Positions 13,525 through 61,169 of a stretch of DNA of 64,000 bases are shown here, in pieces; position 1 is the stretch's first letter; each line of letters begins with the position of its first letter. The DNA lies in NCBI GenBank assembly GCA_018398765.1, contig JAHBMJ010000653.1:28501-92500 (forward strand), given 5' to 3'. The notes below the pieces were generated by a model. That model had not been told where the DNA came from, did no database searches, and saw nothing but the letters and a program-made list of their open reading frames with translations. The stretch is from Chromera velia (taxonomy: Eukaryota > Sar > Chromeraceae). Made by a program: the position numbers and the translations under genes.

Positions 13525-13527
13525 TTG

Positions 13528-19027: not shown

Positions 19028-19115
<88 letters not shown>

Positions 19116-20443: not shown

Positions 20444-20474
<31 letters not shown>

Positions 20475-20476
20475 GA

Positions 20477-20508
<32 letters not shown>

Positions 20509-27300: not shown

Positions 27301-27803
27301 TTGTTCGTTTGTTGTTTTTTCTGTCGGCTTGTCTGTCTGCCTGGAAAACTAGATGCTGCTGGAAGCGGAGGAGCTCCTGCGTTGCTTCCGTGCTTGAGTA
27401 TGTCTGTGATGAGTGAAGAGACGGTACACTTGACATTCCTCCCAATCTCCACACTCAACTGGGGGGCTTGTTTGTCGAGCGAGCGTGCGTGCGGCAAAAC
27501 TTCGTGGATTGACTCCGTATTCGCATGATTTTCTTCGAGGGGAATTTCCTTGAAGACAAAGCCGCTCGAAATCTGACTCCCTTCTCGCGTTTCCTTCTCT
27601 TCTCCCGTGTGATGGACGGATGCAGAGACTGGAGACTGCGTACTACAAGCTTGTCGTCTACGCGAAGAACCTCCTCAGAGCTCGTCTGGACTCGGGCGCA
27701 CAGAAAGAGACTGGACAGATCATCCCCCCAATCGGCGGAGAGGTCTGTCTGTCTTTTTTTGCGCCTCTGTGATCCGGCGGGCGTCTCTACATGTACCTCT
27801 CTC

Positions 27804-27893
<90 letters not shown>

Positions 27894-29049
27894 GGTGCAA
27901 AATGGTGAGATGTGGATGTGGTCGTCAATCAAAGGGCGGTTCCTTTTGCAAACTTATTATGACCTCCCTCAGGACAGTGTGCGAACACACATGTCCTTCT
28001 GTCTGTCTGACAGCACGATGTAGTTTGTCTGCCTGCCTTTCTGTCGGCTACTTATCAAGTCGATTGAGAAGCCTGCCTTGCTCTCTGTTATGAAGCCCAT
28101 GACCCAAAATCTGCTTTCAAACTCACTCCGGTCAAGGGTCTTGAATTGCTCTGTAAAGATTTAATCATTCGTTCTGCTTTCCCTCTTCTGTGACAGCGAC
28201 TGGGTTGGCCAAACCTGAGGCGCACAATGGACACCCTTCACTCCCTTCTGGATGTGGAGGTCCGTCGGCCCTTTATTCCTTGCTTTTCTTTGTTTGTGCA
28301 GTCCGTCCGCATTTTTGTTTTCCCGTTCGACGGTTCTACCGCTCTTCATGAGCACTTTGGATTCCCTTTGCTTTAGCGTTCGTTTCTTTTCACTTTTCTT
28401 CTGCCAGAAGCCCATGATTGACAAAATCAACCGAGAGAATACTCAAAACGGTTTCGTTTTTTTTTTCTTTTTTTGCAGGACTCCACTACCGAGATTCTCT
28501 CCGCCGTCCGAAATCTACTGAACTCGCTTCGGGGTGGGTAGGTAGCAGTGTGGGTATGCGTAGGCACTCCAGTTTGTCCCTTGTTTTGTTCTTCCCTCTC
28601 TCTTTGTGTAGATTCTTCGTTTCTGTCCCTTTCAGGGGTCCTCGAAGAATCTCTCCGTCGAGTGCGCAGATGGCCTCTCTCGTGCCCTCTTTTTCTTTTT
28701 TCTGTATTTTGTTCCCGGAATTCTTCGGTCCCTCTGTCATTTCTTCAATGCTTGCGTTTTTTTCCGAGGCTTGTTGTCCTTGTTCGTTTTTCTTTACCTT
28801 TGTGGGTGTGATGTTTGTGTCTGGTCGCCCAAAGACCGAGGTGGCCTACTCGCTCATTTCCTTATTCTGTCTTGTGTTCCATACTTCTGCAGTGAAGGAT
28901 TGTATGACAATGGGGGCAGGAACGGCGATTCCGAAGGCTGAATTGTCGGGTCCTCTGGGAGGTCTGTCTTGTCTATCTGTCGTCTTCTATCTCTCTCTCT
29001 CTCTCACACATTCTTGCTCCCATTCCCGGTCTCAATCTTTCTTTCTCTT

Positions 29050-29097
<48 letters not shown>

Positions 29098-32000
29098 CGT
29101 GTGTGTGCGTGAAGGCGTATGAGTGTTCGAATTGTCATCGCTTCTCCCGCTCTTCGAACTTTCCTCTCTTACCCTTTCGTTTCTCTCTCTCCTCCTGGTC
29201 GGTGCAGCTACCTGTGAGCGTGCGTTCAAGGACGGGAAGAAGAAAGGAGGGAAGCACGGGCACCCTGCCTCTGAGGTTCCCTCTGTGGATCCGTACGTCC
29301 ATCTGACGTTCGGGTTTTCCTTTGATGACCTTCCTCTGAAGAGAGTGCTGTCAGGGGTGATCGAGGGGGAGGAGGAGGATGACGACTTCGGAGAGAGAGG
29401 GTTTGAGCCCGTCTCTGTGCCTGCAGTTCTCCTCTCTCGTGTGTGTCCAAAAAGATTTCGGCTCGATTCCGTCAAGGTCGGTCCGTCGGTTGGTCAGTCT
29501 TGCTTTCACTCTCCGTGAAGAAACGGGGAGGAAGAAAGAAAAAGACGGGGGAGAGAAAGACGAGAAGAAAGATTCGCCGTCGCAAGAAACAAATATAGGG
29601 AGCAGAAACCATCCAGTGCGATAGTGTGGATTGTAAAGCGAAAAGAGAACAAAAAAAAAGGGAAGGAGACAATTTTCCAGGGAATCTAAAAAAAATTTCC
29701 TGGATCCTGCGTGCGTGACACCACTCCCGTCCGTTTCCATTCCCCGTGTCTTTCTGTGCAGCGGGACAGCACACGCACCTGTCAGGAATATCTGGAGGAG
29801 TTGAGGGAGGCAGGCGAGCAGTTGAGGGATTTGAGCTGGATGTGTCCTGAGGATGAGCGATTGATTCCTGCTGAATGGCTGCGACCAGAGGAGGGGTACG
29901 GTTGTGACGACATGTATGAATGTGAGGAGAATGGGTACAGGAAGTTTGGGGAGAATACGGAGGGGGGGAGAGCAGGGAGAGAGATGAGGGAGCAGCTCGG
30001 TGGGACGGCCAGGCTTCTGATGTCAGGAAGCAGAAGGACTCCCAGGGCTCGGGCTCGGGATGGATCGAGAATGGTCAGTCAATGTTGCGTTCTCCTTCTT
30101 TCTGTTTTTTAGGGGTGTAGAAGGTAGGTTCGGTTCTTGTTCACAGGTTTGCAGTGACCCCTTTTTCAGTCTTTGTGCTGCAGTTTTCTCCACGGGTCTT
30201 TCCTTTCTCTTCTCGTTCTCTCGTTTGCGTGAGAGATGTTTTTTTCGATACACTCCTCAGCCATCGGTGCCCTGGTTGACCCTTCGGCTGCCTTGATCGG
30301 ATTTTTCTCTCGGTCTGTTGTTTTCTGTCGTTGTTTGAATTGAAGCTTCTCTGTCCTGTGACTCAACTTTTCGCGGCTCTTCCGAATGCACGTGCAGGTG
30401 GATGTGGGAGAGGAAGAGGAGAGGTCAGACGCGCACGACCTGTCGGAAGACGAGGATATGACTGAGGAAAGGGAGAGTGGGCACAAGGGACAGCAGCCGA
30501 GGGCTGTTGGGGTGACATTCTTCCACCCACTTGAGACGACAGACACGAAGAGAAAGCAGAACAGCCCCCTGACACCCCAGTCTCTCTGTTCCACCAGAGA
30601 GGGGGAGCGCACGCCGCTGGACGGCCCCTCACTCTTTCAGGCCGTGCTCGGGCTGATCAAGAAAGATACTGCCGCACAGGTCGGAAGGGAGAGAGCACAG
30701 CTGACGCACGCCAACACAAACCCAAGCCGCCTCACTTCCCAGGTGAAGGGTGGCAGGAAGTCATCGGCAGAGGAGACTCACCTGTTTCCTCGAGGAGACA
30801 CACACAGACAGAGACCCCACATGCTTCTGTCCATGCACCCTCAACAACCCCAAAGCAATCCCCCCTCTGGAGGGCAAAGGGAAAGCCAGGCGGCTGCGAA
30901 TGGAAAGAAGGGCCCCGCCCTTTTCCCCTTTGGGCAGTTGGCAGGCGCGATGGTTCCCTCGGGGGAAGCCGACAAGTCACCGACGTGTTCCTCTGTCTCA
31001 TCTCTCACCCAGCCTTCTGTTGCTGTACGGATTCGCGTCAACCCCTCGCCTCTCGCAGGTGGCCCCAAATCTTCCCTCTCAGCACCGAAAAATCCAACCA
31101 CGAAGACTGCCGAAGAAGAAGCAGATCCCCCAAAACCGAATAAGGACGCTGCCCTCCACCTTTTTGGAGCTCTCGGATCCTTGGGAGGTCTGACGGTGTC
31201 GAACCCCCCTCAGGCTCCCGATCCCCCCTCCACAGACATCTTCTCACGTCTTTTCCCCCCTGCACAGGTGAACTCGAAATTTCCCATTGATTCCTTCCCC
31301 CCACAGGCTGTGAAGCTGCCTGCTGCCGAGAAGATGTCACATCTGAACGGCGCACTTCCCGACAAAGAGCCCCCTGCCAACACCGGTCCGTCTGGTGCTG
31401 TCAAACGCCAGCGTCGTGGGTCGGGAAGGCAGCCCGGGGAGACTCGAGAGACAGAGCCGCAACAGGCAGTGCCAAATCGGATGGCCACGAGACGGATGTC
31501 CACTCGACAGACGGCTGCCCACCTGAAGGCATCCCAGCAGCAGGCAGCATCTGAAGTCGAATGCAACAGCAACAGCAGCAGAGAAGACTTGAAGGGAAAA
31601 GAGAGGAAGGAGGGAGCAGTGGCACGGGGAGAGGACGCGATCCCCTCTCATTCAGCACCCGCCGACCAACCGCAGCAGCAACAGCAGAAGCGGGCCCGCG
31701 TTTGCCCTCCATCCCAGGAAGACATGAAGGCGAAACAGATCCCCAAAGGAGTGGGTGTTGGTGTGGGGCATTCCATGTTCTCCAACCTCACTGCAGCGTT
31801 CCCTACAGGGAAAGATCCCTCCCCCCCTCCCCCTCCCTCAGATCCCAGAAGAGGCCTACCGTCTCTCCTCTGTGGTGCTTTCAGCAAATCTTCAGGAAAG
31901 AAAGAGATTTCAGAACACCTCGAGACACAGCAGTCGAGCACGAGGAATCCCTTTCCATCCCCCCGCGCAGACAGAGGGAGAGATACAGAGGATGTCAATC

Positions 32001-34459
32001 CCGACCCTGTTTCGTTTCTGAAATCCCTTCAGGGGTCTCAGAGAGACGGAAAAAGAGGTCCTCCTTCTGCTTCACCCCCCCGCGCAGACAGAGGGAGAGA
32101 CAAAGAGAAAGATGTCAATGCCGACCCTGTTTGGTTTCTGAAATCCCTTCAGGGGTCTCAGAAAGACGGAAAGAGAGGTCCTCCGTCTGCTTCACCCCCC
32201 CGCGCAGACAGAGGGAGAGACAAAGAGAAAGATGCCAATCCCGACCCGCTTGCGTTTTTGAAATCCCTTCAGGGGTCTCAGAGAGACGGAAAAAGAGGTC
32301 CTCCTTCTGCTTCACCCCCCCGCGCAGACAGAGGGAGAGACAAAGAGAAAGATGTCAATGCCGACCCTGTTTGGTTTCTGAAATCCCTTCAGGGGTCTCA
32401 GAAAGACGGAAAGAGAGGTCCTCCGTCTGCTTCACCCCCCCGCGCAGACAGAGACACAGACAAAGAGAAAGATGCCAATCCCGACCCGCTTGCGTTTTTG
32501 AAATCTCTTCAGGGGTCACAGAGAGACGGGAGCAGGGGGAAGTCTTCTTCTGTTTCTCTCTCCACAGAGAGGTTCTCCATTGATTCCCACAAGCCAAAGT
32601 CCAAAGGCATTCTCGACACTCGCGCGAGAGCCATGCCGAGCCCTGCAGAGACCCACCGTTCCAAGCAGGAGCCCTTGTCGAGATCTTCTTTCCGACAGGC
32701 CCTGGGCTTTCTCTCGACTTCCCTGGGAGACAACGGGGAGGGGGGCTGTCTGAGGGGGGGGGCCTCCCATCCTCCGTCAGTTCGTGGATCGATTGGTTCT
32801 TCTTCGGTGGGTAGGGACGTTGAGACAGAGGGAAGCGTTCGAAGTGGGGGGAGAAGTTCAGTTGGTCAGCGTTCGGGGGGACTCGTGGGGGGACTAGCGA
32901 GCATTGTAGGGGGGCAACAAAAGGAGAAGGGCCGAGAGGGTGATCGTCTGTCGTTGTCGTCAGCATTGACAGGTCTGCGTGGTGCGTCAGAGAGGCGTGT
33001 GCGTGAGCCCCTTCCCGCGCCTGGAAGGAGACTGACTGGTTCTGAGGAAAGTTGGAAAGAGTGGGAGGGGGAGGAAGACAGTGTGCTGGATGATGGAGAG
33101 AGGGGGCAGATTCCTCACAGAGAGGGGTGGGTGGGCATTCTCAAGGGCACTGTGTCTACGTCTGTGCAGGGGGAGACGGGCCTTCCAGGGAAAGAGAAGA
33201 GGGGAAGAGATGTGACTGGGGTGCCTGTGTTCATGCCAGCAGAGAAGAGGGGAAGGGAAATGATGAGTCAGTCCCTTGGAGGTGGAAGAGAGACGAAAGG
33301 CAGGGGAAGGGATCAGACTGCGTGTGCTCCTGTGGCTCCCCATTTGCCACAGCAACAGCGAGACAGGCTCGTTGCAGTCAAGCAAGAGATCGGTCAGACG
33401 TCAAAAGCCGGGGTCAGGAAGGAGGCGGTGGGGGTGCATCAACAGCACGAGCACACCCGGAACGGCGAAATGGACTCAGTTCCTGGGCAAAGGGGGGGGG
33501 GAGGGTTTGCTTCCTTCACTCCCCTACTTAGGGAAGGGTATGAAGCGGCTCGCTTACCAACGTCAGTCTCTGGGGGTTCTGTGTCAGGCTCAAATGCCAG
33601 TAGACAGGGGGGTATGCCAACGTCCGTCTCTGGGGGTTCTGTGTCAGGCTCAAATGCCAGTAGACAGGGGGGTATGCCAACGTCCGTCTCTGGGGGTTCT
33701 GTGTCAGGCTCAAATGCCAGTAGACAGGGGGGTATGCCAACGTCCGTCTCTGGGGGTTCTGTGTCAGGCTCAAATGCCAGTAGACAGGGGGGTATGCCAA
33801 CGTCCGTCTCTGGGGGTTCTGTGTCAGGCTCAGACGCTGCGAAAAGAGGGGGGGTGTCATCAGGTTTTGACGTTCTCAATCAGCTGAGGATGCAGATGAG
33901 TGTCCCTCAAAATGGGGGACAGAGAATGACGCAAGCGCAGCCGCAGAAAGGCAGCGGCCTCCCCCCCCACGAAATTATGGCTGCACTCGTAGGGGGGGGT
34001 CGTCAGGTTCCTCAGTTGCTCGGCACAGGACAACAGAGTCATGAGCAGAGGGGGGTCGGGGGGGCTCTCAGCCAGCTGATGGAGGGGCGTGCACCGCCAC
34101 AGCAGCCGTACGGGAGGATGGGGTGGAATGAGGGGCACCGTGACGGGGGATTCAGGTCCCCCCATGATCCTCACGTGGAGACGTTGATGGATGCAGTCTC
34201 GATGTCGAGTCCGTCTGTTGTGTCTGCGGGGGGAACCCCTTCGTTCTCTCCCTTGACGGGCCCGAACGGCATCCTTGCGGGTTTGGGTGGCCAGAGGGGT
34301 GCGGTGGGTAAGGGGAAGATCCCAGCAGGAGACGGGGAGTCTGCGGGGGACTCTGCAGAATTTTCCTCTGCTCTGTCTGCAATCGAGTCGGAGTCAGAGT
34401 CGGAAGGGAATGACTTCGAGGACAAAAATGATGAAGACTGGGTTCCCTGGAAGAATTAA
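24354..34459 (+). CDS. Very long multi-exon gene; possible divergent cohesin SA/SCC3-like protein with disordered repeat tail
   Basis: Exons I can support are 24354-24617, 24715-24799, 24945-25190, 25363-25379 (17 bp), 25530-25760, 27626-27742, 28197-28259, 28408-28450, 28479-28533, 28636-~28656, 28893-28961, 29208-29476, 29762-30073 and 30398-34459. Phases close except around 28408-28660, and extra exons may exist at 25.8-27.6 kb (for example 27353-27389). The N-terminal ~600 residues are helical, HEAT-like. EFGLLIGG + ACARLF, MPKYFRLEM and RLETAYYKLVVYAKNLLRAR fall in the same order as weakly similar SA/STAG blocks (IPQYFDLE, LLAAFSKLIIY). This match is tentative, and an SA protein would normally have more sequence before it. 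The last exon (1,354 codons) is hydrophilic and disordered, has two tandem repeat arrays, and ends in an acidic ESESESEGNDFED segment with stop at 34457. Confidence 0.75.
31964..32540 (+). repeat. Coding tandem repeat, about 120 bp (40 residues) x 5
   Basis: Five units start at about 31964, 32081, 32201, 32321 and 32441. The first is 117 bp and the others exactly 120 bp, so the frame is kept. Each encodes PRADRGRD...DP..FLKSLQGSQ.DGKRGPPSAS. Units 2 and 4 (VNADPVWF) match each other, as do 3 and 5 (ANPDPLAF). This indicates a 240-bp higher-order repeat. Confidence 0.95.
33557..33840 (+). repeat. Coding tandem repeat, 60 bp (20 residues) x 5
   Basis: Five 60-bp units encode PTSVSGGSVSGSNASRQGGM. 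Units 2-4 are identical at the DNA level, the first differs at one base near its start, and the last diverges after GSVSGS. Near identity means recent expansion or gene conversion. Confidence 0.97.
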
Positions 34460-35150
34460 TTAATTAAGCCTTCGCCTGAGAGACTGATTGTGATTGTGCT
34501 CATTGGTTCCGTCTATCATCCAGTTTTGTCTGCCTGCCTGCGTGAGGCATGAGGTGTGCATGTGTGACTGGATAGTTGGGGGGACGGGAAGCTTGAGATG
34601 AAGTTCGTGAGGACAATCGATCAGGGAGGCAGAGAGAGAAGAGAGTGTGTGAGAGAAGTTGCGGTCGTTTGGTCTTCGAGTGGTAAGGGAAAAACGGGGT
34701 GTAGAAAAGTTTTCTCAATCACTATCGGTCGATGCTGGTGGGAGGGAATCGAGATGCATGTACTCAATCAAAGGTGAAGGTGGAGGTGGAAGAAATGAAA
34801 TACCAAAGGGCATGTAAGGGGTCGGAGGAAAATAGATAATGGAGGGAGGACAGTCACCGTCTCACTGACCGACTGAAGCTTCTCTTCTTGCTTGCAGTCG
34901 AGTCTCTTCCTTCTTTTCCCTGTCTTCTTGTATTGTGTCTTTCTGTGTGTTCATGATCATGCCTTTCTCTTGCCCCGTCTTTCTTCCTTCCTCCTTCTTG
35001 AGCCAGCCTCCTTTGCTGCTCTCATCTAGCTCTTTCTCTTTCCAATTCGGCGTCTGTCTGTCTGTCTGCCCAACGGAGTTTGAGTGCATCGCTTGGAGAA
35101 AAACTTTATTGAATGCATGCTGGGGAGGGGAGGGGTGTGAACGGAAGGAA
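34460..35150. other. Spacer after the long gene
   Basis: A TTAATTAATTAA stretch directly follows the stop codon. The rest has no supported exon, though a TTGCTTGCAG acceptor-like site occurs at 34889-34898. Confidence 0.45.
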
Positions 35151-35595
35151 ATGGATTACGGACGGGCTTTGTGGGCGCAGTTGGGTGAGGAGGGACGGTG
35201 GTCTGCCTGGTGAAAAAAATCTGTCTGTTTCGCAGGCACAGGGGGGCAGTGGCTCAAAAGACCAACTCCGATCGACAAATTGAAGTCGATCTGTCAGGCT
35301 GTCCCGTGTGCAGTTTCAGGTGGGTGGAGAGAAAGAAGTGTGCGTGGAGGAGCCAAGATAAGGTCTGTCGAGACCCCCCGCCTTTTTGTGTTTTTCCTCT
35401 TCGCCTGTCCGTCTCTCCTTCCCGTCAAGGAGTCCGGTGAGTAAGGAGGAGGAAGGGCTTCAAGAAGTCTCGGGCTTGTCAGGACCGGACGCCACCTCCG
35501 GCTTTAGAGGGGGTTGGGGTTCGTCCTCGGGCGTGGTGAAAAGGATGTCGGGAATTTTCGGATTGGTGGTAAAGTCGCCTGACGACCAAAAATGA
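35151..35595 (+). CDS. Three-exon gene, 76-residue protein of unknown function
   Basis: The exons are 35151-35184, 35236-35319 and 35483-35595. Donors are GTGAGG and GTGGGT; acceptors are TTTCGCAG and GCTTGTCAG. Both introns are phase 1 and the frame closes at TGA. The ATG has a favourable AAAATGG context. The protein starts MDYGRALWAQL, continues GGQWLKRPTPIDKLKSICQA with three cysteines in the middle, and ends with a glycine/serine stretch and a hydrophobic IFGLVVK segment before a charged tail. I recognise no family. It resembles small organellar accessory subunits in size only. Introns are 51 and 163 bp. An upstream exon is possible. Confidence 0.55.
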
Positions 35596-36460
35596 TTCTT
35601 CTACTTGCATGCTGCAAGGGGATTGGAGAATGAATAAATGAATGAATGAAAGATGGGATGGGATGGGCGCGTAGATCAGGAAGGGAGAGAGGCAGGGCAT
35701 TGGAGAGTCATTCTCAGACTCAAGACTGGGAAAAGGATGAGAGGGTCCAGCATGGTGGGCAAGAAGCAGGAGAGCTTCGGTCGATCGGACGAAGTGTGGC
35801 CGCACTGGGATGGGGGGAAAGAGAGTGCATTACGCCAAGAGAATCCATGCCAGGGTAGCCTGCACACTGCAGCACGACCTGGACTTTCATGGGGGGGGTG
35901 CATGGGTTCATGATCGATGGATACAAAATCGCATCGGCAGTCGTCAAGACCGTAGCCAGATGGGCAAACGAGCATGCTTTTTGATGGAGCCTCGGCAAGC
36001 TAAAAACCACCTGTCCGTATGACAAGCAGGCAGACTGTACAGTTCACAAAACAGGTTTGGATAAAGTTTCTGGCTAGGTTTCTAGATGAAGTTTACCATA
36101 ATTATGGCATAATAGAGCTAGTATTTAAGCCTAGTAATAGAGTCTAGAATAGAGTTTTACTCGATCTGTTCATTAAAACCTCAGGCTCCACAGCCTACCT
36201 AGCAGTATGTTGGTTGGAATTTCAACCCCTATACCTTATAAAACCACTGTTTTAAACCAAGTTAAATTCTTTAGGAATTTAGTGGAATTTACTTAAGGAA
36301 TTTAGTGGAATCTGATGCTGGATCGATTACTAGATCTGATGGAAGATATTTTTTTCCTTTAAATGTGGGAGCATTTGAAATAAAAGCAGGAGATAATTGC
36401 GTTTATGTCGTCGTTCCAGCCTCTAGCGCCGAGACTGGCGGGTATGAGGGTAATCAACTA
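35596..36460. other. Intergenic DNA becoming AT-rich
   Basis: No gene supported. The frame at 36305-36502 is open for 65 codons and reads protein-like in part (FFPLNVGAFEIKAG). It runs into the MITE beginning at 36461 and is probably a relic. Confidence 0.4.
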
Positions 36461-36720
36461 GGGGTGATCCCAATATATTTATTTACATTAAAGTGGCGAT
36501 AATTTCACTTTAAATAAATAATTTAAAACATTAAAACACTCAAAGAACTTTGAAGAAAAGTTGGAACTGAAACTGAAAGAAAACATCACTTTTCTAGCGC
36601 TCTTTGCTTAGTTCTTTGCAGGGTAGTTTCAAAGTGTGTAAAGGGAAAATTTTAAAGTTTACACTTAAAATCGGGGTGTCATCACTTTATTTAAAAATTT
36701 AAAACTATTGGGATCACCCT
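36461..36720. mobile_element. MITE, 260 bp, TA target (Tc1/mariner or Stowaway-like)
   Basis: Terminal inverted repeats GGGGTGATCCCAATA (left) and AGGGTGATCCCAATA (right, reverse-complemented) enclose AT-rich non-coding DNA. TA lies at 36459-36460 and 36721-36722, the duplication expected for Tc1/mariner-type insertion. Confidence 0.65.
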
Positions 36721-36722
36721 TA

Positions 36723-37619
36723 GGTGATCAAAAAATATATAGTTAAATTTGTGTGATTGGGTTAGTAGAATATATGTAATTATAGGTAATTAGCACCCCT
36801 AATAATTAAAATAGTACTTTTAATTGTATATATTCCTAAAATGCTTAAGAGATATGAAGCAGTTGCACGTCAGCGCCACTGCTTCCTGCCGATGCGTTTA
36901 GTGGTACATTTCACTTAATTCAGAATGCTTCCAGCGATTGATGAACTCGAAGTTGACAGACAATGACACTTGTGTCGCGCAAAAAACATGTCACTAACTC
37001 ACTGTGCATACAGATGTCAATGTCATTAAACTTGCCACAGCATGAACCCATAATCAAAGTAATTGCTCACGCATGGTTTCTATTATTCTCTGTGATAACT
37101 CTACAAAGTAATACTACATGTCATAAACTGTTATGTACCAGCCTGACGGCACTACATACCCACACAGAGAAACCAGTCAAGGCCCGGGCGTGCCAATGGA
37201 ACGGCGCGGCAGGCCGCAAGGCGCGTGACCGTGCAGGGTCTTTCCGGGGCCCTGATAAAGCGATTGATGTATCCTTTTACCAACCCATATCAACCAATCA
37301 CCCAATTGATCACCAATCAGATTCACAGATCGATCTTTCGTTTGCTTTCCTGTCTAATAGTCCATCATGGACTAGGGTGCGCACTTGCATGACTTCTCTG
37401 TATATCTATAACCTGCTTACCGTGTATATGACATGAACCGTAGCTGGCCAAAGCCTAACTAAGTGGTGGCTCATCGGTTTTAACCATTATTAAGCCTCTC
37501 TAACTTTTTTTTTTCCCTATGTGCGGCGCCTAGTCCAGATGATATGCACGAAGCTAGGTGGGGGGAGTTAGATAGAGGGGGGAGTTAGAGGCTCAGCCCA
37601 GAACTTTAAACTCCTTCCC
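36723..37619. other. Intergenic DNA, no gene seen
   Basis: An open frame at 36963-37436 has ordinary intergenic composition and no recognised motif. GGGGCCCTGATAA near 37245 echoes the sequence near 11305. Confidence 0.4.
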
Positions 37620-38610
37620 CTCAGACACATCCCCGACAGAAGCGAGGTTACTAGGAGACCTACTGCTGGAGAGCATTAGATATGCTGATAACCTCGTCAT
37701 CTTCGGATACTTGGAGTCCTCCCAAGACTTCCAAAAGAGGATTGATCGGTTGGCTACCTATTGTAATAAGTGGGGGTTGACAGTGAATCTGAAGAAGACA
37801 AAGGTGATGAGATTGGCAGGTAGAGGGGGAGTAGATGAAATTTATTTCAAGGGTCGGACAGTCGAGTGGGTAGAGAGTTACAGATATCTTGGCTGTCAGG
37901 TTTTTTCTGATGTAAACCCTCGCAAGTCTGTGACCGCCAGACTTGAAGCCGTAGAAAGAGGAGTTGGGGGGGCTATGGGTCTATGTGCGTCAATAGGTAT
38001 GCTCTCCCCCCACAGTCGCATATCCCTTTTTAAGGGGATGTGGGAGCCCGCCGCCACATATTCCCTTGAAGCTCTCCCCATTCAGGAATCTGACATCCGA
38101 TGCTTAGACTCCCTCCAGCTTCGTTTTGTGCGTTGGTCTCTCCGTCTGCCCTGGAATTCTTTTGTGTTTCCTACCCTTGCAGCCGTTGGGCTGAGGCCCA
38201 TGAGAGAGATTCTGAGTATCAGAGTGGGGGGATATTTGAGAAGTCTCTCCCTTGCTTGATTGGCTTTGCCTCAAGCATTGTGAGCATGCCACAAGAGGGG
38301 GGAGTTAAGGGTATGGTCGGGGTCTGTAAAGAAGCTTGTGCAACCCATCAGTCCTGTTCTCCTGAAAGGTGAACCAGATGAGGTCGATTTTAGAATATTA
38401 GATAGCAAGCTGAGAAGGAGAGCGAGAAACAGAGAAGTGAATGAATGGATGGAAGACTGGGTAAACCTGGTCTCTATCATAAAAAGGAGAGGGGGGAGGC
38501 AGGGGAGACAAGAAATAATATTATATGGGAACGTGTCTTTTCCTTTGTCTGCTTGCCTGACCGAATATCAGAAGGAGAATAGTAACAGCCAAGTTTTGAA
38601 CGTTTTGTAA
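37620..38610 (+). pseudogene. 5'-truncated non-LTR reverse transcriptase fragment
   Basis: The fragment opens at the catalytic box, reading IRYADNLVIFGY (YADN in place of YADD). It continues through the thumb region (WGLTVNLKKTKVMRLAG, YRYLGCQVF, then a GAMGLCASIGMLSP segment) to a stop at 38257-38259. A frameshift leads to a second segment (about 38338-38610) with RARNREVNEWMEDWVN. That segment is alignable with REAQEWLDNW in the next copy. The finger domain and endonuclease are missing, so it is an inactive relic. Confidence 0.85.
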
Positions 38611-39319
38611 AATTGATTCTCGGAAGCTTGGTGAAGGGGAGGGGAGGCTCATAGTCTACCTTGGCAGAACCTCTCTTCAAGCAGTTCTTGTCTTCCCCCC
38701 TTTGTTGTGCGCCATTGTTAGAGGGGGGGCAAACCATGGGGGGAGGGTTGAATCAATTTACAAAGCTTATAAAGAGAGAAGTTGGGAGAAATTGATTGAC
38801 TGAGTGATCTCTGGTATAGGCGACTGGAGCGTATATCAATAGAAGAAGTGTGTGAGCATGGAGAGAGACAGGAAGCCCGAGGGAGTAAGGGGGTGGGGCA
38901 GGCTGAGGAGTAGGTAAGGCGGTACTTCTCGCTTCTTCTTCAGAGGGACGCCCGAAAGGCCAGTGCTCTCATTGCTGCATGCCTAAGACCGGACTGATCG
39001 ATCCTGGGGAGCAGTATGCCAGTGTTTTGCTAGCTACTAGTAGTCCTAAAGTTCGGCCGCTTTAGGTGAGCATTCGCTAGCATGCTCTTAGCTTGCAATA
39101 TGACATGAATGCTCATAGACTGCCCTTTGACATTGAGATACGATGGCTGGCAGGTTAAGTCACCTCATCATCATCATCATCAGGTACGAAGGCCAAGAGA
39201 CTCTAGAAGAGACTATTTAAATTATTTACTAGAACTGAGAACAAATGAAAAAATAACGTCGTAAAAAAATATAATGCATACAATTTGGAAGCAATTTGAG
39301 TACATATAACTAGGCATAT

Positions 39320-40740
39320 TTGGTCGTTCTGTTTGGTTGTTCTTCGTATGAGCTTCAAGCGAGAATGAATAAATTGGCGGAATATTGTCAGACATGGGGC
39401 CTCACGGTCAATTTGAAAAAGATAAAAGTAATGAGGCTTTCCTGCAGCAAGGAGAATATTAGTCAGCCAATCTTCTTTGAAGGGAAGGAAGTTGAGAGAA
39501 CGGGCCAGTATAAGTATTTAGGCTACACCTTTTTTGAAGGTGGATCTCTCCGTTTCTTTGTGAGACATCGCCTGGAAGTGGTAGAGAGGACACTCGGAGG
39601 GGTTATTGGGCTCTGTGTTTCTCTTGGTCGTCTCTCCCCGACTTTGAAAATTATGCTCTTTTGGGGCCTGCAGATTCCTGTGGCCCTTTATGGGCTAGAA
39701 GCGTTTTCCCTCAGTCAGGCAGACATGAAAGCGTTGGATGATTTGCAACTACATTTTGTTAGATAAGTTTTCGGCCTTCCCCGCAATTCGTTTCGTGTCC
39801 CCTCCCTCTTCAGCTCCGGCCTTTGCCCGATATGGGCTATCTTGACTAAAAGAGTGGGGGGTTTTTTACGTAGCCTCTCCTTAACATCCTACTGTGTGCC
39901 CGCTGGCTTTTTAGATCTCTGTAAAGACGGCTTTTATGGCGATTGGTAGAGGTCCGTCAAGCTGTTGGTGGGACCTTTCGCTCCTGAACTCTTCTCTGTC
40001 GAGGGGGTGCCTTCGGGCCCGGGAGAGAAAGCTGCATTAAAAAGAAAGCTCGCGGTAGAAGGGAGAGGTAGGGAGGCACAAGAATGGTTGGACAACTGGT
40101 TTGTAGCTACCTCCCGTTCTTTGCAAAAAGAGGGCCGGCAGGGCAGGGGAGGGCAGGCAGGATGAGGGGGGGTTTTCCCTAATGGAGTGAGGCCTTTGGT
40201 CTTCCAAGTCGAACATCCGTCTAGACAGCGTTTGGCCCATCTTGTCATGAGAGGATGGATCGGCTCAAGCGGGCGGCGTGTTCCTATGGTTCGACCTCTC
40301 CCTAGGAGGCTGCTCTGTTCGGAGGCCAACGTCAGGCCGATTGCCCGTGCACTGTTGGGAAGGGGGGGGGGAGTTCCAAACGGGGAGGTAGAGACGGTCT
40401 GCGAGCACTGCCCCCTCGATTTGCATGGGCGTGGCCATCTGTCAGTGAATGATGTTGTCCATAAGTTGACTGAATGCAAAGGGACCGAAAGGAAGAGGGG
40501 ACGCATGAATAGGCTTTTGGAAGAAGTAAGAAACGCTCACTCTAAGTTAAACTTGATTGTATGGGTACAACAAATGGCTAAGCAGCAGTTGGGACGGGGT
40601 GTGAGCGAAAATGAGAAGAAAGTGAGGGAGATCTTCACACTTCTCCTCGAAAAGCACCCTATTGCAGGCGCATGGGCGATCTCCGATTGCCTTCGTAAGG
40701 AGCTGTGTGTGTTCCCTCAGTCTGTCCTTCTTTCTCTTTT
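39320..40740 (+). pseudogene. 5'-truncated non-LTR retrotransposon C-terminal part with zinc-knuckle-like end
   Basis: One reading frame runs from about 39320 to 40740, broken by three in-frame stops (39764, about 39948, 40163). It contains WGLTVNLKKIKVMRLS, YKYLGYTFFEGG, GLEAFSLSQADMKALDDL and REAQEWLDNW, then a CEHC...H....HKLTEC cluster. This resembles the C-terminal zinc-knuckle of LINE-type elements. Because the frame is otherwise intact this is the youngest of the three copies. It runs into a pyrimidine (TTTC) tract and a GATT repeat at 40946. Confidence 0.85.
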
Positions 40741-40744
40741 CTTC

Positions 40745-40781
<37 letters not shown>

Positions 40782-40800
40782 TTTCTTTTTTTTTTTTTTT

Positions 40801-40838
<38 letters not shown>

Positions 40839-40840
40839 TT
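40738..40840. repeat. (TTTC)n-(T)n-(TTTC)n tract
   Basis: Pyrimidine microsatellite with a central T run, at the 3' side of the retrotransposon relic. Confidence 0.95.
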
Positions 40841-40945
40841 TTCCCTCACTTCCTCTCATTCTTTCCCCGTTGTTGTTCATTCTTGACGACCATACTTGTT
40901 TTTGAGGGGAATATTTCGTTATGTCAGTCCGAGTGTGTGTCATCC

Positions 40946-40971
40946 GATTGATTGATTGATTGATTGATGAA
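40946..40971. repeat. (GATT)n tract
   Basis: About six GATT units. Candidate 3' tail of the adjoining non-LTR element. Confidence 0.85.
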
Positions 40972-42014
40972 CAAACAAGGGCGGAACGGAATCAATCGGG
41001 GGGTGAGCGAAAAGCATATGGGGGGGAAACGCGAGACGGACGACCCCAAGAGGCCCAGGCTGCGGGGTTCAGATTGCACTCCTTGCGTAAGCGTGGGAGG
41101 CGGTGGGAGGTGATGGGCTCGAGCCTGCACGGGTACGGGGGGGCACGCGGGGCGCTCGTGCTCGTACGGTTCACAAGCAGGTCTGCGAGCAGGGTGTATG
41201 TTACATGCGGCTTCTCCGTTCTCCTTCTGCCTTTTTCTCCCCTTTTTAAATTTTTTTATCATGCTTACTACTTGCAATTTCACTCCCCTGGAAAACAAGT
41301 CGTGCTTCAGGGATAAACCGATTGAACTGACTGAACTGACCGAACTGCAGGAACTAAACTGAGAGAGAAACCTTTGCTTGTACGTCTTCGGCAGAAAAAA
41401 TAGGGAATCAAAGGAGATTGGGAGTTCTGATCTTTTTCTCTCTCCGTCTCCTTCCATTCCGCCTCAGGTGATTTTCTTTAGAGGTCATCTGACAGACCTC
41501 TAACTGACACGAACTGACAGAAGGAATCTCACTGGCCCGTGACCCTTGGGAAAAAAAAAAGACACAGAAACAGAAGGGTCCATCTCCGTCCTTTCTGTTC
41601 CCCCTGAGGTACTTGTTTTTTCCCTTTCCTTCTCGTTTCCCCCTCCGTTCGGGCGTGCCAGTGCTGTTCTGGCGCTTTGATCGGTCATGGGGACCTTCTT
41701 CCGGGTGAAATGCAGGCAGTCCTCGATCGTCTGAAGGGTGGGATAGAGAGCATGTTGTAACTCAGCCTGTAAGAGAACTACTAGATGAAGCAAAAGCCTG
41801 TTTGCTTAGAGGTGGAGCCACCCTCCACTTCCATCCGCCTCCCCACCCTTGTCAGGCTCCCATCGATTCAATTTACCCCAGTGGGGCCTAAGTCGAAAGT
41901 TTAACTCTATGTATGACGCTCTAGGTTGGCCAGAGTCTATACGGCTCACAGGCTTTAACCCCATACATCATCATCATCATCATATAATTTATTCTGTATG
42001 CATGGAATCGATCA
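40972..42014. other. Spacer downstream of the aconitase X gene
   Basis: No supported gene. ATC/CATCAT repeats near 41960-41985 and a few pyrimidine-rich runs only. Confidence 0.45.
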
Positions 42015-44234
42015 TCACCAGTGAAACTCTGTGTGCTGTGATGATTTGCACACTCTGCATGGTGAAGGAAATTCACAATGAGATCGGCAGTGTGCCTTCC
42101 CGCCGCCAACGGCAGCCAATCGCGACCGAGGAGCGAAATTCGAAACCCAAGCCGGAAGCGACGGTGCTTGGTCGCTGACAGCCGCGTCTACACACGCACT
42201 GAGGCTGCCGAATCGTACGCACTCCAGCGGATGGCCTTGACTGGCCGCAAGGCCAGGGGCGTAGTGAGCGTATTTGGCTGAGTTGGTCATCACCGCCCGT
42301 GTCCCTGCGGGGAGAACGGAGGGGAAACACCAACAAGTGTCGGTCACAAATTCAACGCCAAAATATTTCAACACAGAAGCATGTCCTGCTTTCTCCGCCT
42401 GTTCCAACACCTCACGTCCCAACGTGATAATTACTCGAACCCCCTCCCGCTTCTTTACTGAAAAAAATCTCCCTTCCTCTGACCCCTCTGCTGTCCCAAC
42501 ACACAGCCCACACCTCTTCCGAACGAGCGCTGCTAACGACGCCGTCTCCTCGAGGGAAAAATGGGGATTTCCGAGGGCAATCAGGTCTACTGTACCACTG
42601 GAAGTGCACGTCTGCTCTTCACCCCCACTATCTTGGCTGACAGTACCCGACTGTGTCGGAGACTCAGACTCTCCTTCTTCCTCTCTAATGGGTGGAGCAT
42701 CGGCTCCCTCTCCCCCCTTGTCTGCCCCCGACTGACGCACGCCTGCTGACTCAACCTCGGATTCCCCCCTCACCCCAATGACCCCCCCCTCCTTCTGTGG
42801 AGGAACTGCGCCAACGTCGAGCGCCAGCCAGGCTCCGGACAGGTCTTCGACTGTCAGGCAGACTGTCGGAAGTGCATGCGCACCGTTCTGCGCAGCTGTA
42901 TCTGATTCTTTTTGGGTCACTTCAGGTCTCTTGGGAGTGACCCCTGTCATGTGGAACAGGGGAACAGCACTGGAAGTTCCCAAGGCTGCTGAGAAACTTT
43001 TCAGCTGATCTCGGGTCACCCCAACCGCCTCCAGTCCGTCAATCAACGGTACCCTTGTACCACACCGATGCCCGCACAGATACCCCAAAACAGAAAAAAA
43101 TGAGTCCCGATCCTGCCCACCCAGCAGAGCCTCCCCATGATCTCTCACCACCTCACTCACGTCCAACCGCATCGAGGGAGATCGTCCGCTCTCTAAATGC
43201 GCACCTGCAGCGGGCGCTTTTCCTGTCAAGGCTGCGCAGATGTCCAGATAGTCTGCGTACTTCTGTGTTCGCGCGCCCAGGACACTGTTTGCAAAAATTA
43301 CCGCATTGCTCTCCCCCCACGCCACGTCCTCGTGCTGGGTAGGCGCAGACTGAAGGAGATACGGAGCACAGGTAAAAGAAGGGGATGCACCCAAAGTCAC
43401 ATACGCGTCAGCAAGCGCTGCCGACCCCTTCCCCAGTTCCTCATCCACCCCCTGATCTTTCCAGTATCGTCTGTCTGCAGAAATCGCGTTCAAAGTGGTG
43501 GGCACCACAACGCGCCCCCCGAGCTCGACGAGCATCTGGGCGAACCTCAGCCCTCCGGGGCCTATGTAGCAGCAGCCGTCTATATGGGCTTGGCTGATTC
43601 GGATCAAACGGGGAGCCCCCTGAATGGAGGCAACTCTCGCAACGATGCGCAGTGCAATGCGATGGGCCTCTGATACTTTCTGTCCATCACTAGATCCCTC
43701 GAGGATCGCTCGCTCTTCGGTGGAAAGTTCTAAATCCCCAATATTGAATTTCGGTGCCACTCTGATCTCCTTCTTATTCTGTGAGACGAGTTTCCCACTG
43801 ATTTCTTTCTCATCATGTGCAGACACCTCACCGTTCTGTACTTTCACAAAATTCGCCCCACTCGACCAGATGACCTCGAAACTTTCCTCCCCGACAGACA
43901 CCACGGGGATCGAGACGGCAAACAGTTCCTCTGCCACGATCACACCGAGAGCCACTATGAAGTCAGGCTCTCTCAGAACGATCGCAGCAGGCGCAACCCC
44001 ATTCAAGAGAAGCTCCAAAAGCGCTTGGCTACCGGTGCAGGAGCCTCGTCCGTTGGGGATCGCAAGAACTGACCCTGCCAGGCGCTGACCGTGCAGCGGG
44101 TGGGTGTGGTCGACTACAGCAGACGTCACTACATCGACCCCTCCCCAGAAACTGAGACCAGTCTGACTTGCAAGCAAAGGCCCACTCCCCAAGCCACTAA
44201 CCAACTCTCGCCCAGAAATCGAAAACGAATTCAT
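42015..44234 (-). CDS. Aconitase X (AcnX) with fused swivel and catalytic domains, intronless
   Basis: AcnX proteins are Fe-S hydro-lyases. Characterised members dehydrate cis-3-hydroxy-L-proline (bacteria) or mevalonate 5-phosphate (archaea). This one is a single open frame of about 739 residues. I start it at the ATG at 44234 because SFSISGREL matches the usual swivel-domain start; the frame stays open 40 codons further upstream. Swivel motifs (DUF126-like) are SFWGGVD, HPLHGQRLAG and NGRGSCTGSQALLELLLNG. Catalytic motifs (DUF521-like) are HIDGCCYIGPGGLRFA, VPTTLNAIS, TCAPY, WGESNAVIFANSVLGART, DICAALTGKAP, GNPHFSLEE, DTCWCF and MTNSAKYAHYAPG. About 70 Glu/Ser/Gly-rich residues interrupt the catalytic domain after VEDLSGAWLALDVG. 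The substrate cannot be told from sequence. Fusion and lack of introns contrast with all neighbours. Confidence 0.93.
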   Translation of the reverse strand: MNSFSISGRELVSGLGSGPLLASQTGLSFWGGVDVVTSAVVDHTHPLHGQRLAGSVLAIPNGRGSCTGSQALLELLLNGVAPAAIVLREPDFIVALGVIVAEELFAVSIPVVSVGEESFEVIWSSGANFVKVQNGEVSAHDEKEISGKLVSQNKKEIRVAPKFNIGDLELSTEERAILEGSSDGQKVSEAHRIALRIVARVASIQGAPRLIRISQAHIDGCCYIGPGGLRFAQMLVELGGRVVVPTTLNAISADRRYWKDQGVDEELGKGSAALADAYVTLGASPSFTCAPYLLQSAPTQHEDVAWGESNAVIFANSVLGARTQKYADYLDICAALTGKAPAAGAHLESGRSPSMRLDVSEVVRDHGEALLGGQDRDSFFSVLGYLCGHRCGTRVPLIDGLEAVGVTRDQLKSFSAALGTSSAVPLFHMTGVTPKRPEVTQKESDTAAQNGAHALPTVCLTVEDLSGAWLALDVGAVPPQKEGGVIGVRGESEVESAGVRQSGADKGGEGADAPPIREEEGESESPTQSGTVSQDSGGEEQTCTSSGTVDLIALGNPHFSLEETASLAALVRKRCGLCVGTAEGSEEGRFFSVKKREGVRVIITLGREVLEQAEKAGHASVLKYFGVEFVTDTCWCFPSVLPAGTRAVMTNSAKYAHYAPGLAASQGHPLECVRFGSLSACVDAAVSDQAPSLPAWVSNFAPRSRLAAVGGGKAHCRSHCEFPSPCRVCKSSQHTEFHW

Positions 44235-46302
44235 CTCTCTGCTCAGGAACGAATCATTCACGGAGACGGCTGAAAAGGACTCATATATACATGCAAACAA
44301 TTCAAAAAATCGGTGGACTGCATACATGCTGGAATGCCACGGGCCACGGCTCACCCAACTGTACTACATTTCTCGTTTGTCGTAGCAAGCTGGTTCAATG
44401 GAGGGTGTGATGCAGCAATGTTTACAGAAGGAGCATTACAAAGGTGGGCTGGAAGAAGAATAGAGAAGAGACGCGGAGAGACGGCGGGGCCCGCGGCAAC
44501 TTAGGCCAAGATAGGTAAAGATAGGTCAAGGCATACACTGGCATGCGGAGGCCCATCATTGAAAGCCAAACAATTTTCTTACGGGCCCCTTACGACGATG
44601 GTGACCGGGAGTGAACACTAAGTGACTAAGTATTAGACAAAACGCCTACTAAACAAAGACTATATCAAATATGAAAAAAAAAAAAATATTTCCGTAAAAA
44701 ATATATATAAAAAAATCTTACGGGCCTATACGTCTCAGCATACTACAAAGCGCATAGCATAGGGGACCTGCATATCTATACGCATTCCTAGATCTTCCTT
44801 TACTATCACGTCTAATCACGTTTTTTTTTATTTTTTTCCTTACGAGCCCGTTCTAGCATATTAGTATGAATCGCTACATGCATGATACTTCTTTTTTTCC
44901 ACTGGGTGACAGCCTGGGTTATGGGGTCCTCGAGGTTCCCAAGTCGTAAGTCACATTAAAACTGATCGATGGGTAAGGTAGAACAGAGTTGCTTCTAGAC
45001 TCAAATAGGCTCAAAGTCGTACCTCAAAATTGGATCAAAAGGAAAGACAACTCGATTAATCGAATACGATCTGACAAACTACATGCAGGCGAGATCCGCT
45101 CTTCCCAGCGTCTTTCATATACAGGGATGTGATATACATACGAAACCTTTGATCATCCATACCAACCTTTTTTCGTTTTTGAGTTAACAATCCTTTTTTC
45201 GTTTTTAAGTGGGAAAACCTAGTGGTTTAATAAACAGTCAATGGTTTAAATTAAAATGAGATTTTACGTTTTTTTAAAAAAAGTATTTTAAACTATATCC
45301 CATCATATTAAAGACTAGCTATAACAAGTTTTAAAAAATGAATGTTACACTGGATGAATTAATGGTAAATTAACATCAACAATTCTGTCAGTGTAATCTC
45401 TTCTTCAGACGGATGGTTCTAAATCGTTATGACGCTCTGCATGTGCTATCTATTTTTTTCCCCCTATTTTCTTCCTGTTTTTCACATTCAAAGGCATTTA
45501 CATCAAAAGATCCGAATTTAAGGTCCTTCTGTTTTGTGTCAGCGTTGTCTGCCAGACGCCGCATGGATTTTTTAGGGAGGGGAGTTAAGAAAACACATAC
45601 ACGGACCCATCGGTCAACCGAATGCATTTGCACACTCATCGACTGCATGCACGAAAGTGACACTGGAACAAAAAGAAAGACTTGTCAAGTATAGCAGGTT
45701 CGAAGTAGTTCGAAGTCAAGACTGATGCATTGACCACTACGCTGGCTCCTGCCAGCTGAATGTGGGTCGTATAGCGATAGAAAGGTTCGAAACAGACACA
45801 GCAATGATCAAGCAGGAACCAACAACAAACAGGCAGGAACCAACAACAAACAGGGAGATCTACCGAAATTTCCTTAGTTCTTTTCCTCTTCTGACCTCGA
45901 AGCGCCCCGCTCATCCATTCTCTCATTCAGTCTCGGGTACGCACACTTCTCTCTTCCCCCCTCCTGACCGTTCGACGCTGCGGATCGATTTCGTTCACAT
46001 CTATTACAATCTATCCGTCTTTCCTCATTGGGCCCTTTCCCCTCTCCCGCTTCCCTCTTTCTTGCAGCTTTTCCCGTACGTTCAGGTCCCTAATGAGCGA
46101 AGACCTCGCACACCTCTCGACCCTTCTGGAAAGAAACTCCAAAGCATTCCCTCCCTTCTTTCCTGCAGCATGACTGACTAAAAGACAGACTGACTGACTT
46201 ACTAAAGGAAGTACGCGACCTCGACAAAATAAGTGAAAAAGGAAAGAACAAAAGGGGGAGAAAGGAAAGAGAAAGAGTTACGTTTCTTGCCCCTGGCTTG
46301 CT
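44235..46302. other. AT-rich intergenic region between aconitase X and thermospermine synthase
   Basis: Long A/T runs at 44670-44720 and 44820-44840, and the AT-rich stretch 45150-45360. No exon chain or protein is recognisable. Both flanking genes are on the minus strand, so it holds the aconitase X promoter and the 3' end of the thermospermine synthase gene. Confidence 0.5.
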
Positions 46303-50989
<4,687 letters not shown>

Positions 50990-52008
50990 AACTCACAAAA
51001 AACATACATATCCTCCTCACTCCCGTCTCGTCTCTCTACTGACCGGCTGCTCAGGAGCCGTCACGTGACCGTTCGCATTCGACATTCTGCTCGTCTACTT
51101 CTCCAATGAGACAATCCGGTTCTGCTATGTGGTCTTGAAGAGATCACAGCCATGCGGCAGCTCTACCAAGGTAGATAAGAGAGACAGAAAGAAGAGAGGC
51201 AGCTCAACTGCACAGTGAGCGCTGTATCCGAGGGAAGAAGCCAAACGACCCCGGAAATCAAAGAAACAAACCGATCAAAGACTGATCCAAAACGTCTCTG
51301 CGACCAAGTTAGACGGATTGTTCAGGGGGCGCCATGAACACAGTCAATTCTCCAACGTGAGGAGTCTGTTTGTGATGGCATCACAGCGAGCCGCCGGCCG
51401 GTTTTTCAAGCAATTCTGCTTGGTGGGACCGAAAGATACCGAAAGTGACTAAAAAGTTTTAGAGAAATGACGCACGCATCCTGCATGGCATCTGCATGGC
51501 ACAGTGGCCCCGGCCGCCCGGAGGGCGGAGCTGCAAGCCCAAGTAACGCAGCTCCGGGGCCTTTTGAGCATGCAGCAAGCGAAGCGAGCGGTTTCTATAT
51601 TAATATGTGGCTGTCTCTTCTGACAGTCATGCAGTCTGTCCGTCTTTCTGAAAAGCTGGATTGGCAGTTAGAACTCAGAAGAAAACCTTGTGGAGAACAG
51701 CAAAGGAATCGGTGTCGGCATGAAGTAAGTCAACATTGAGTCTGTACTTGGCGTTCGGCCAGGCGACAAGCATATTTAATCCGTGTCTACTGACCGTGTC
51801 TCATATTTTGGAGCACAGGTTCCTTCTTGTATGACGGTCCCGAGGTTCAAAAATGGCACCGTCCAGGGAAGGCAGCTGGCTGAAGAGAGGTAGATGACTC
51901 TGTATTCCGTGTGTGGGAGTCTCGCTGTGAATATTGGGAGTCGGGGTTGTCGTTGGTGATGGATCACCAACTTGTCATTTGCCTCCACATTGACGACTTC
52001 CCTTCGGG
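50990..52008. promoter_or_regulatory. Divergent upstream region (thermospermine synthase / PAS sensor)
   Basis: About 1 kb between the two divergent start codons. It contains a perfect-looking stem at 51527-51559 (GGAGCTGC...GCAGCTCC) within a GC-rich patch. No promoter element can be assigned with confidence. Confidence 0.4.
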
Positions 52009-55000
52009 ATGAATCCGCTCTTTCGTCTAACCGCAGCTTCAAACTTTGGATGTGTTCGCACTAAGCTTGGACTCCTCCGGTTCGAGAGCCGTCAGCTGGA
52101 GAAGATCTTCAATCAACATGTGGCAGTCGCGCTGACAGACAGCCTCACGGGGGCCTTTTCCCTCGCTTGCGTTGTCTTTGCTGTGCTTTCTTTACTGTGT
52201 GGGGGGCGCCAGCTTGCCGGGAGTGGTGCCTTTACCAGAGGGGCTGTGTTGATCATGGTCTCCTTCGGGTGTTCCGCACTCTGGGTGTTCGGCCGTTTCA
52301 ATCCGGTCGGTTGTGCCCATACAGAGGTAGATCCCTTCAGGTTGGCGGTCCCAAAACGCAGGTATGTGTTCCCTGTATGGCTGGTAGGTCTGATTGCTGT
52401 AGCGGTCCTGACTACCTTCTGCTTCTCGGTCCCTAAGAGCTTTTTCGCGCTCTACGGGTACCCAGATCACGAGTTCACACCGAGGCCGGAAGACACGTTC
52501 GCCCGCGAACTTCCTGGTTGCTTATCTCGCAGCTTCTTCCTCCTGTTCGAATTGGCGATCATTTATCTGTTCCGCTTCCTTCCTGTCGTTCTTGTGCTTG
52601 TCCTTCCGTATAATACGATCATGTTTCTGATCGTCATAGAACATCTGGACTTACCAGGAGGATTCGCGCACCAGTATCCGTTTGTAATCACCGCTGTTGC
52701 GATGGTGCTCATAGGCGTGTTTACCGCACTAGCCTTTGACATGTTCACTCGCTCCCAGTTTTACGCACGCGAAAGGATGAACGCACAACGTTTTGCCGCA
52801 GAGGAAAGATCGCGGTGTCTCTCTGCCGCCGCTGCGTGCTTCGGTTGTGCTGCGTTCATTTTTGAAGGCCCTGAGAAGGTTTTCTCTTTCCCTTTGTTGC
52901 TGGGGGGGAGGGTGGGGAGTGGCGCCAGCAGCAAAGTTGCAGGGGGGGCGAGGGAGGTGCACCCCTCAGGTGATTGGTGTACTTCGACAAACGAGACAAG
53001 AGGGTCGGGGGGGGGGAGGAATGACGGGTCTTTCTCACCGACGCGGTCGGAGGATTTGGCTCGGTCATGCTCGGCCAATTCCAAAAATAGCTCGGCACTT
53101 GCTGCGGCAACCCCCCAAGAAGAAGTCGTAGAAAGGGAACAGAGGTCAGGAACAGAACGAAAAGGAGGGGGGGGTGTCGAAGCCGGAAGACTTCAGTCCT
53201 CTTTGGTTCGTTCTCAACAGAGGGCTGCGGTAGCTGAGCGTGGACGTGTAAGGGATCTGACAGCAGATGGGGGGAGGGATCCAGAGGGGGGGCCTGCAAG
53301 AGAGGTGCACGTATCTGCAGCAGGAGAATGTGTGTGTGTTCATGTTACATCAGGGGCAGAAAGGAGTGTGGGGGTGTCTCAAGAAGATGCAGTCCGAAAG
53401 GGTGTGAAGGGGGTGGTGGACAAAGGTTTGCGGCCCTTAGATCGGAACGCTCTTGCCAGCGTGTGCGGAAGGGCAGTAAAAGATTTGAAAGAACGACTGC
53501 ACGAACGTGGTAAGGGTGTGGTGAGGGTATTGGGGGGTGGGGTTGGAGATGATGAGACGTCCTCTGTACCGTCTTCAGCCAGTCGTGGCAGTAGAAATTC
53601 TCTAGGTCTTTTTCGTCTCCTTCTGTCCCGACTGTTTTCTTCCCGTGCCCCCTTGCCAGAAGAGGATGATGTGAACACCCTCCTAGGAGCAGCAGCAGGG
53701 CGGGAGGGCGTTGATCTCGAGATGGGCATCAGCCGAGGCAGACTAGGCAGATCCGCACGCTTTTCCTTCTCAGACGGTGACCATGTCCTAGGTACCGCGT
53801 TAACAGAAGACCCCCTCTTGATGGATGTTTCGGCCCAGGCTGATGAAATCAGGGGTGTGGGGGGGAAGCGGCAAGGTGTTTGTGGTGGGGGTGGAAACGA
53901 AGGGGAAGGGGACAAGGTGTCGGGAGAAGTTTGCAAGAGACAGCGATACTTTGAAGTTACAGCAATATCGCAACTCCTCCGTCCTTCTGACCTGTTGGAA
54001 ACTGCCCCTTCGACACCTGTGGGGGACTCTGTCTCGGAACGATTCAATGGGGGTGATGAGAGTCACGGGGGAGAAGGGGATTCTGTGGGAGGAGGGCGGA
54101 TCCCTCAAGCCTCCCGAGGGGGGGACGCGCTTCTTCAAGTCCGTGTGATGCTCGTGTTCCGAGACATCTCCTCAAGGTGCGTTCGTTCGTTACCTTTTTG
54201 CGCTAGGTGCCTGTTTTTTTGCATGGGATTTCTTTGTCTTTTCTGGGGTCGCCTTCCTCTCCTTTCAGTCACCTGCTCTCTTTCTTTCTCATGCCCTTGC
54301 CCTTGCCCCTGCTGCATGTCTTGTTCGTTTGCTTGCGTGTCTGTGAATGTTCTTGCACGAGTGAATTAGAAATTCGGCCTTCAGGTTTATGATTATTATC
54401 TAGATGTCCAGCCTTGAAAGCGCTTTGCTAATTCCCCATTCCGGCCTTCTCTGCTCCTCGTCAGCCTGCCTGCCTGCCTTCCTGCCTGTGCATCTGCAGA
54501 GTTGAGGAAGCACAGAGAGCAAAGTCGATGTTGGAGGAATTCGCCCAGCTTCTCGGCACCGCTGCGTGGCAAGCAGACTTTCCATTCCCCTTTCCCCGTC
54601 CTCCGCCTCTTCCGATCGAACCAAGAGCATCTCCCGGTGCATCAACACCGTCGGTCGTCTCTCACAGCAACGACCAGAACATCACCCGACAGCCCGCCCC
54701 CCAAGTGTTCAACACCCATCCATCCCATGGTGCTGCACGGTCCTCAGGTCCTAACACTGTGCAGCGAGAAGCCTCCAGTCGCTCTACCGATGCCGAAGGG
54801 AAGGGGACCATTAGACGGAGACCGGTCTTGATCGTGGGAGGGAACAGCGAAGCAGCAGCAGAAGATCATCCAATTCTCACAGACAGTGATGAGAATCGGT
54901 CGAGTGTGCTGTCTGCCTATACTGCAATTTACCAATCCAGAGTGATCGAAGCACTTACCGGACGGTCTTTCCTCACACCCCTAGAAGCCCAAGAACTGTC

Positions 55001-58952: not shown

Positions 58953-59002
58953 TCCCCCCCCCCACCCGTGCAGCCAGCTACATGCATGCATGCATCCCCT
59001 TC

Positions 59003-60126: not shown

Positions 60127-60228
60127 ACCTGCTGGACTGCCTGGAATGCTCTCTAACCCCTCCCTCCTGCGTGTGTGACCGAAAGGAAAGACCTCTTGGT
60201 TCCAGATGATCTTCATGAAACCCGTCGT

Positions 60229-61166: not shown

Positions 61167-61169
61167 CTG

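Follow-up and report, generated by a model that had tools for sequence, protein, structure and literature searches.

The gene and its surroundings

The window (the whole stretch of 64,000 nucleotides of Chromera velia DNA that was analysed) carries on its minus strand, at 42015-44234, a coding sequence for a Type-I aconitase X (AcnX), recognized by its open reading frame, its Pfam matches and its match to a PDB entry. The frame comprises 739 codons and a stop, and runs uninterrupted from an ATG at 44234 to the stop at 42015 (782 codons if measured from stop to stop), which bears out the claim of an earlier note, made from the letters alone, that this is an intron-free coding region of 739 codons. 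An in-frame ATG computed to lie 31 codons further upstream (44325-44327, minus strand) provides an alternative start; because of this ATG, beginning at 44327, and an acceptor-like CCTTTTCAG that by eye ends at 44270, upstream of the first start, the gene may possess a 5' leader exon. Just 3' of the stop, an AATAAA (41988-41993, minus strand, by eye) is a possible polyadenylation signal.

How does this gene compare with its neighbours? A spermidine/thermospermine synthase-like gene lies on the minus strand at 48824-49468, its best solved match being the polyamine aminopropyltransferase 1uir. Its matched exons (49468-49373 and 48979-48824) are separated by a 390-base GT-AG intron (49371-48982, borders placed by eye), so the AcnX gene sits within intron-bearing eukaryotic DNA; among the three frames in the surroundings of this neighbour, two were without a solved relative. 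The earlier note had set the AcnX gene against a neighbourhood in which every other confident host gene was split. This held for the one gene checked, but the contrast is weakened by other stop-to-stop frames of 1365, 791 and 641 codons in the window, which may be long exons; uninterrupted frames of some length are evidently no rarity in this DNA. The missing introns in the AcnX coding region are mildly interesting. Tandem-like repeats are found at 31956-32529 and 33557-33832 within the 1365-codon open frame (30362-34459).

Pfam scans of translated frames gave matches in 34600-44592 (plus strand) and 44400-54392 (minus), and no family in 44400-54392 (plus), 20000-29992 (minus), 32000-41992 (minus), 10000-19992 (plus) or 54000-63992 (plus), while Rfam and tRNA searches of the whole window found nothing. 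The plus-strand matches were to reverse transcriptase, at about 37672-37902 (E = 7e-6) and 39326-39532 (E = 0.0077), both below the Pfam cut-off; the pieces concerned (37576-38259 and 39314-39766, plus strand) match RVT_1. A third reverse transcriptase piece, recognized by eye at 4202-5164 (plus strand), had no tblastn match to these two. Elsewhere in the window there is a direct repeat of 462 bases (13063-13524 and 15082-15543, 97.4% identical), with more diverged copies between about 12.5 and 18.0 kb.

Domain organization and predicted structure

Pfam places an AcnX_swivel domain (PF01989) at residues 27-112 (E = 2.1e-27; 43899-44156, minus strand) and the AcnX catalytic domain (PF04412) in two stretches of the same chain, the better of which covers residues 168-445 (E = 2.8e-118; 42900-43733, minus strand; also aligned with PDB 7cnp). 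The last part of the catalytic domain, residues 549-698 (42141-42590, minus strand), was delimited by alignment and residue mapping and contains the Cys-X-Cys cluster ligands. These matches confirm the identification as AcnX that had been made by inspection. The fusion of swivel and catalytic parts, to which the earlier note had drawn attention as a sign of something unusual, is present, but it is ordinary, because Type-I AcnX proteins of bacteria and fungi are described as single chains that begin with the swivel domain and continue through a linker into the catalytic domains (PMC8184944); we therefore do not regard it as an oddity. The Chromera protein, with its swivel N-terminal to the catalytic domains in a single chain, has just this arrangement. 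Its best match among NCBIfam families was C3LHypD (640.4 bits, below the curated cut-off of 700), and it is 44-52% identical to five plasmid-borne Type-I proteins and 46-52% identical to 17 taken from genome records. As judged from sequence, then, this is a member of the AcnX family and of its Type-I branch.

A predicted model (mean pLDDT 73.8, pTM 0.78) had as its first structural match the solved Type-I fold 7cnp (E = 2.6e-56; TM score 0.89 by target length, 0.68 by query length). The catalytic part is divided by a stretch of 69 residues peculiar to the Chromera protein (474-542; 42609-42815, minus strand), of low complexity and predicted to be disordered (pLDDT below 50 for residues 476-545), in agreement with the earlier description of a low-complexity insertion breaking this domain. 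Further stretches of at least 10 residues confined to the Chromera protein occupy residues 363-372, 575-593 and 710-739, and there are four of 4-6 residues. Past the usual bacterial end there is a C-terminal tail (residues 699-739; 42018-42140, minus strand), with pLDDT below 50 from residue 704 onwards. Third codon positions have a GC of 0.52 in residues 474-548 and of 0.46 in the tail, as against 0.56 overall, and from its lower value the tail may simply run to the next available stop. Both the insert and the tail seem to be disordered appendages lying outside the AcnX core.

Host adaptation and origin of the gene

The codon usage of the AcnX gene correlates closely with that of four long frames of the window, assumed to be host genes (r = 0.888), and much less with that of Pseudomonas aeruginosa lhpI (r = 0.385) or a Sulfitobacter copy (r = 0.589); the same computation gave a GC of 0.499. 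Since its codon usage is window-like rather than lhpI-like, adaptation of the gene to its host is supported. Bacterial contamination or an assembly chimera might be suspected of an intron-free gene in a family common in bacteria, but is scarcely conceivable: not only is the codon usage that of the window, but the low-complexity insert is missing from at least 90% of 84 bacterial proteins, and the nearest matched exon of a gene with a GT-AG intron is about 4.6 kb away. On these grounds we reject it. A viral carrier was likewise rejected, as no relative was found among viral contigs, and the search of phages gave one match, weak and partial, to a phage record of faecal origin.

Two trees were made. 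The first used 33 of 88 sequences after thinning at 82% identity (30 bacterial rows, two Type-II rows and the Chromera protein), and in it the Chromera protein branched outside the entire set of 30 bacterial rows (support 89/0). In the second, of 31 sequences with no Type-II rows, it paired with a P. aeruginosa protein (98/97). Its end branch (1.8-2.0 changes per column) was flagged as long. When it was constrained to group with a gammaproteobacterial set, the topology was not rejected (AU test, p = 0.17), the set having been named after the tree had been seen and without L008, a Pseudomonas sequence grouping elsewhere.

Horizontal transfer from a proteobacterium would accord with the second tree, with this constrained topology (subject to its post hoc choice of set) and with a coding region devoid of introns. 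It would fit less well with the window-like codon usage, with the long end branch or with the position outside the bacteria once the Type-II rows are included, and the relatives sampled for the trees comprise no eukaryotes; we consider such a transfer unlikely. More generally, trees that sample bacteria and contain no fungal or protist AcnX would not be expected to tell apart bacterial transfer, fungal transfer and old eukaryotic descent.

Could the gene instead have arisen by retroposition from an AcnX gene with introns in the same genome? Its intron-free coding region would be in keeping with this, as would the two weak matches to reverse transcriptase at distances of about 2.5 and 4.1 kb, but no direct repeat of 14 bases or longer flanks the gene on both sides (searched in 41400-44900), and by eye the 165 bases after the stop contain no A-tract. 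These absences do not favour recent retroposition (old copies can lose both features), and we think such an origin quite unlikely. The suggestion in the earlier note of transfer or retroposition followed by domestication thus survives in its second half, where codon usage indicates host adaptation, while on origin the two trees place the protein differently.

Active site and a change in the substrate pocket

When the protein was aligned with AtAcnX, 12 of the 13 ligand or contact residues named in PMC8184944 were found to be kept (in Chromera numbering Trp30, Ser65, Cys66, Thr67, Asp219, Cys289, Glu308, Ser309, Cys634, Cys636, Lys654 and Tyr658). They include all three Type-I cluster ligands, the mapping of which had been proposed as a check: Cys273, Cys508 and Cys510 of AtAcnX correspond to Cys289 (codon 43368-43370, minus strand), Cys634 and Cys636 (the codons of Cys634-Trp-Cys636 being 42327-42335, minus strand). 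In a ten-residue Type-I test set nine residues are kept, the exception being Ile206 of AtAcnX, which is replaced by Cys222 (codon 43569-43571, minus strand).

All 84 bacterial Type-I proteins compared have Ile at this position (the two Type-II rows and L076, a partial sequence, were set aside for this count). The figure overstates their independence, because the genome-contig part of the set consists of the 80 top-ranking of at least 581 relatives, and 69 of those 80 loci are titled Pseudomonas. The two Type-II large subunits, inspected by eye, carry Leu and Phe instead. The bacterial proteins share 139 columns with a conservation of 98% or more, and at 15 of these the Chromera sequence differs. 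In AtAcnX, Trp35 and Ile206 touch C4-C5 of the substrate ring, and I206A is among four mutants whose kcat/Km is weaker by 1-4 orders of magnitude (PMC8184944). The replacement of Ile by Cys222 is to our minds the most useful lead from the alignment, and hints at a changed substrate.

Reaction and substrate

We think it fairly probable that this is a host-adapted eukaryotic gene for a Type-I aconitase X that retains its catalytic residues, the likeliest substrate being cis-3-hydroxy-L-proline or a compound closely related to it. The C3LHypD score below its cut-off and the 15 differences at highly conserved columns count against this reading. The gene is real, and its predicted product is probably a working eukaryotic member of an already known enzyme type, for which we infer the cluster, reaction, substrate and expression. 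By analogy with the dehydration mechanism proposed for AtAcnX (PMC8184944, section 9), Ser65 would abstract the proton from C2. With Cys289, Cys634 and Cys636 as its ligands, and near Glu308, a [2Fe-2S] cluster would act as a Lewis acid towards the leaving C3 hydroxyl, which Lys654 would protonate; and cis-3-hydroxy-L-proline would thereby be dehydrated to a product that rearranges to delta1-pyrroline-2-carboxylate, from which a reductase could generate proline.

The earlier note had also named mevalonate phosphate among possible substrates. Activity as a mevalonate 5-phosphate dehydratase, the Type-II function, might be considered from the shared family and a weaker match to TkAcnX, but the protein is a single chain with the Type-I Cys-X-Cys pair, and at the place of the third Type-II ligand (Cys at AtAcnX position 449) the alignment puts Asn556, which speaks against such a function. 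On this ligand set we reject mevalonate phosphate, and regard the activity as very improbable indeed.

Doubt over cis-3-hydroxy-L-proline itself comes from Cys222 and from the weak fungal enzyme: the efficiency of TrLhpI was 316-fold below that of PaLhpI and 83-fold below that of AtLhpI, which led the authors to suspect that its physiological substrate is a different one (PMC5144071). The pocket may accordingly have been shifted by the change from Ile206 to Cys towards a different substrate, such as a 4-substituted 3-hydroxyproline. The position is Ile in all 84 bacterial Type-I proteins, and in PMC8184944 the contact between Ile206 and C4-C5 of the ring is proposed as the cause of poor use of a 3,4-dihydroxyproline. 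On 2,3-cis-3,4-cis-3,4-dihydroxy-L-proline, the specific activity of PaLhpI is reported to be lower by a factor of about 300. Against this, every other mapped residue is kept, and a single residue is thin evidence when the proteins compared are bacterial and mostly from Pseudomonas; a shift of this kind seems to us rather unlikely. A smaller residue at the Ile206 position could admit a C4 substituent, and 3,4-dihydroxyproline has been reported from diatom cell walls (PMC4557024, where the relevant statement gives no stereochemistry). It is a more speculative notion, and a decidedly improbable one, that Cys opens the C4 side of the pocket, so that the enzyme would serve as a dehydratase for 3-hydroxyprolines with a substituent at C4, 3,4-dihydroxyproline being an example. 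If it were true, the organism would gain a route for recycling this compound.

In PMC5144071, Type-I AcnX enzymes of two bacteria and a single fungus were assayed, and the real substrate of the fungal one was left open. Among nine papers on 'aconitase X', no title names a eukaryotic aconitase X (some AcnX, DUF521 or LhpI papers concern a fungus). The enzyme type is already known from bacteria and fungi; the Chromera gene adds a new eukaryotic member to it, with one interesting pocket change. With its catalytic residues intact and this single change, the Chromera protein offers a simple test of what determines substrate choice, and also of whether further eukaryotes degrade 3-hydroxyprolines.

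Comparison with known systems

The Chromera protein resembles AtAcnX in being one chain, in domain order and fold, in the three cluster cysteines and in 12 of the 13 mapped residues, but differs from it in having Cys222 for Ile206, the 69-residue insert and the extra C-terminal tail. With PaLhpI of P. aeruginosa it shares its architecture and, for a plasmid-borne copy, 52% identity; the plasmid copy, however, has as neighbours genes for a transporter, a proline racemase family protein and lhpD, whereas the stretches scanned in the Chromera window yielded only the spermidine synthase-like gene and reverse transcriptase fragments. TkAcnX, the Type-II mevalonate 5-phosphate dehydratase (PDB 7cnr), has the AcnX fold in common with it, but is made of two subunits and has a different set of cluster ligands (PMC8184944). 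TrLhpI of Trichoderma reesei, as described in PMC5144071, is like the Chromera protein a eukaryotic Type-I AcnX.
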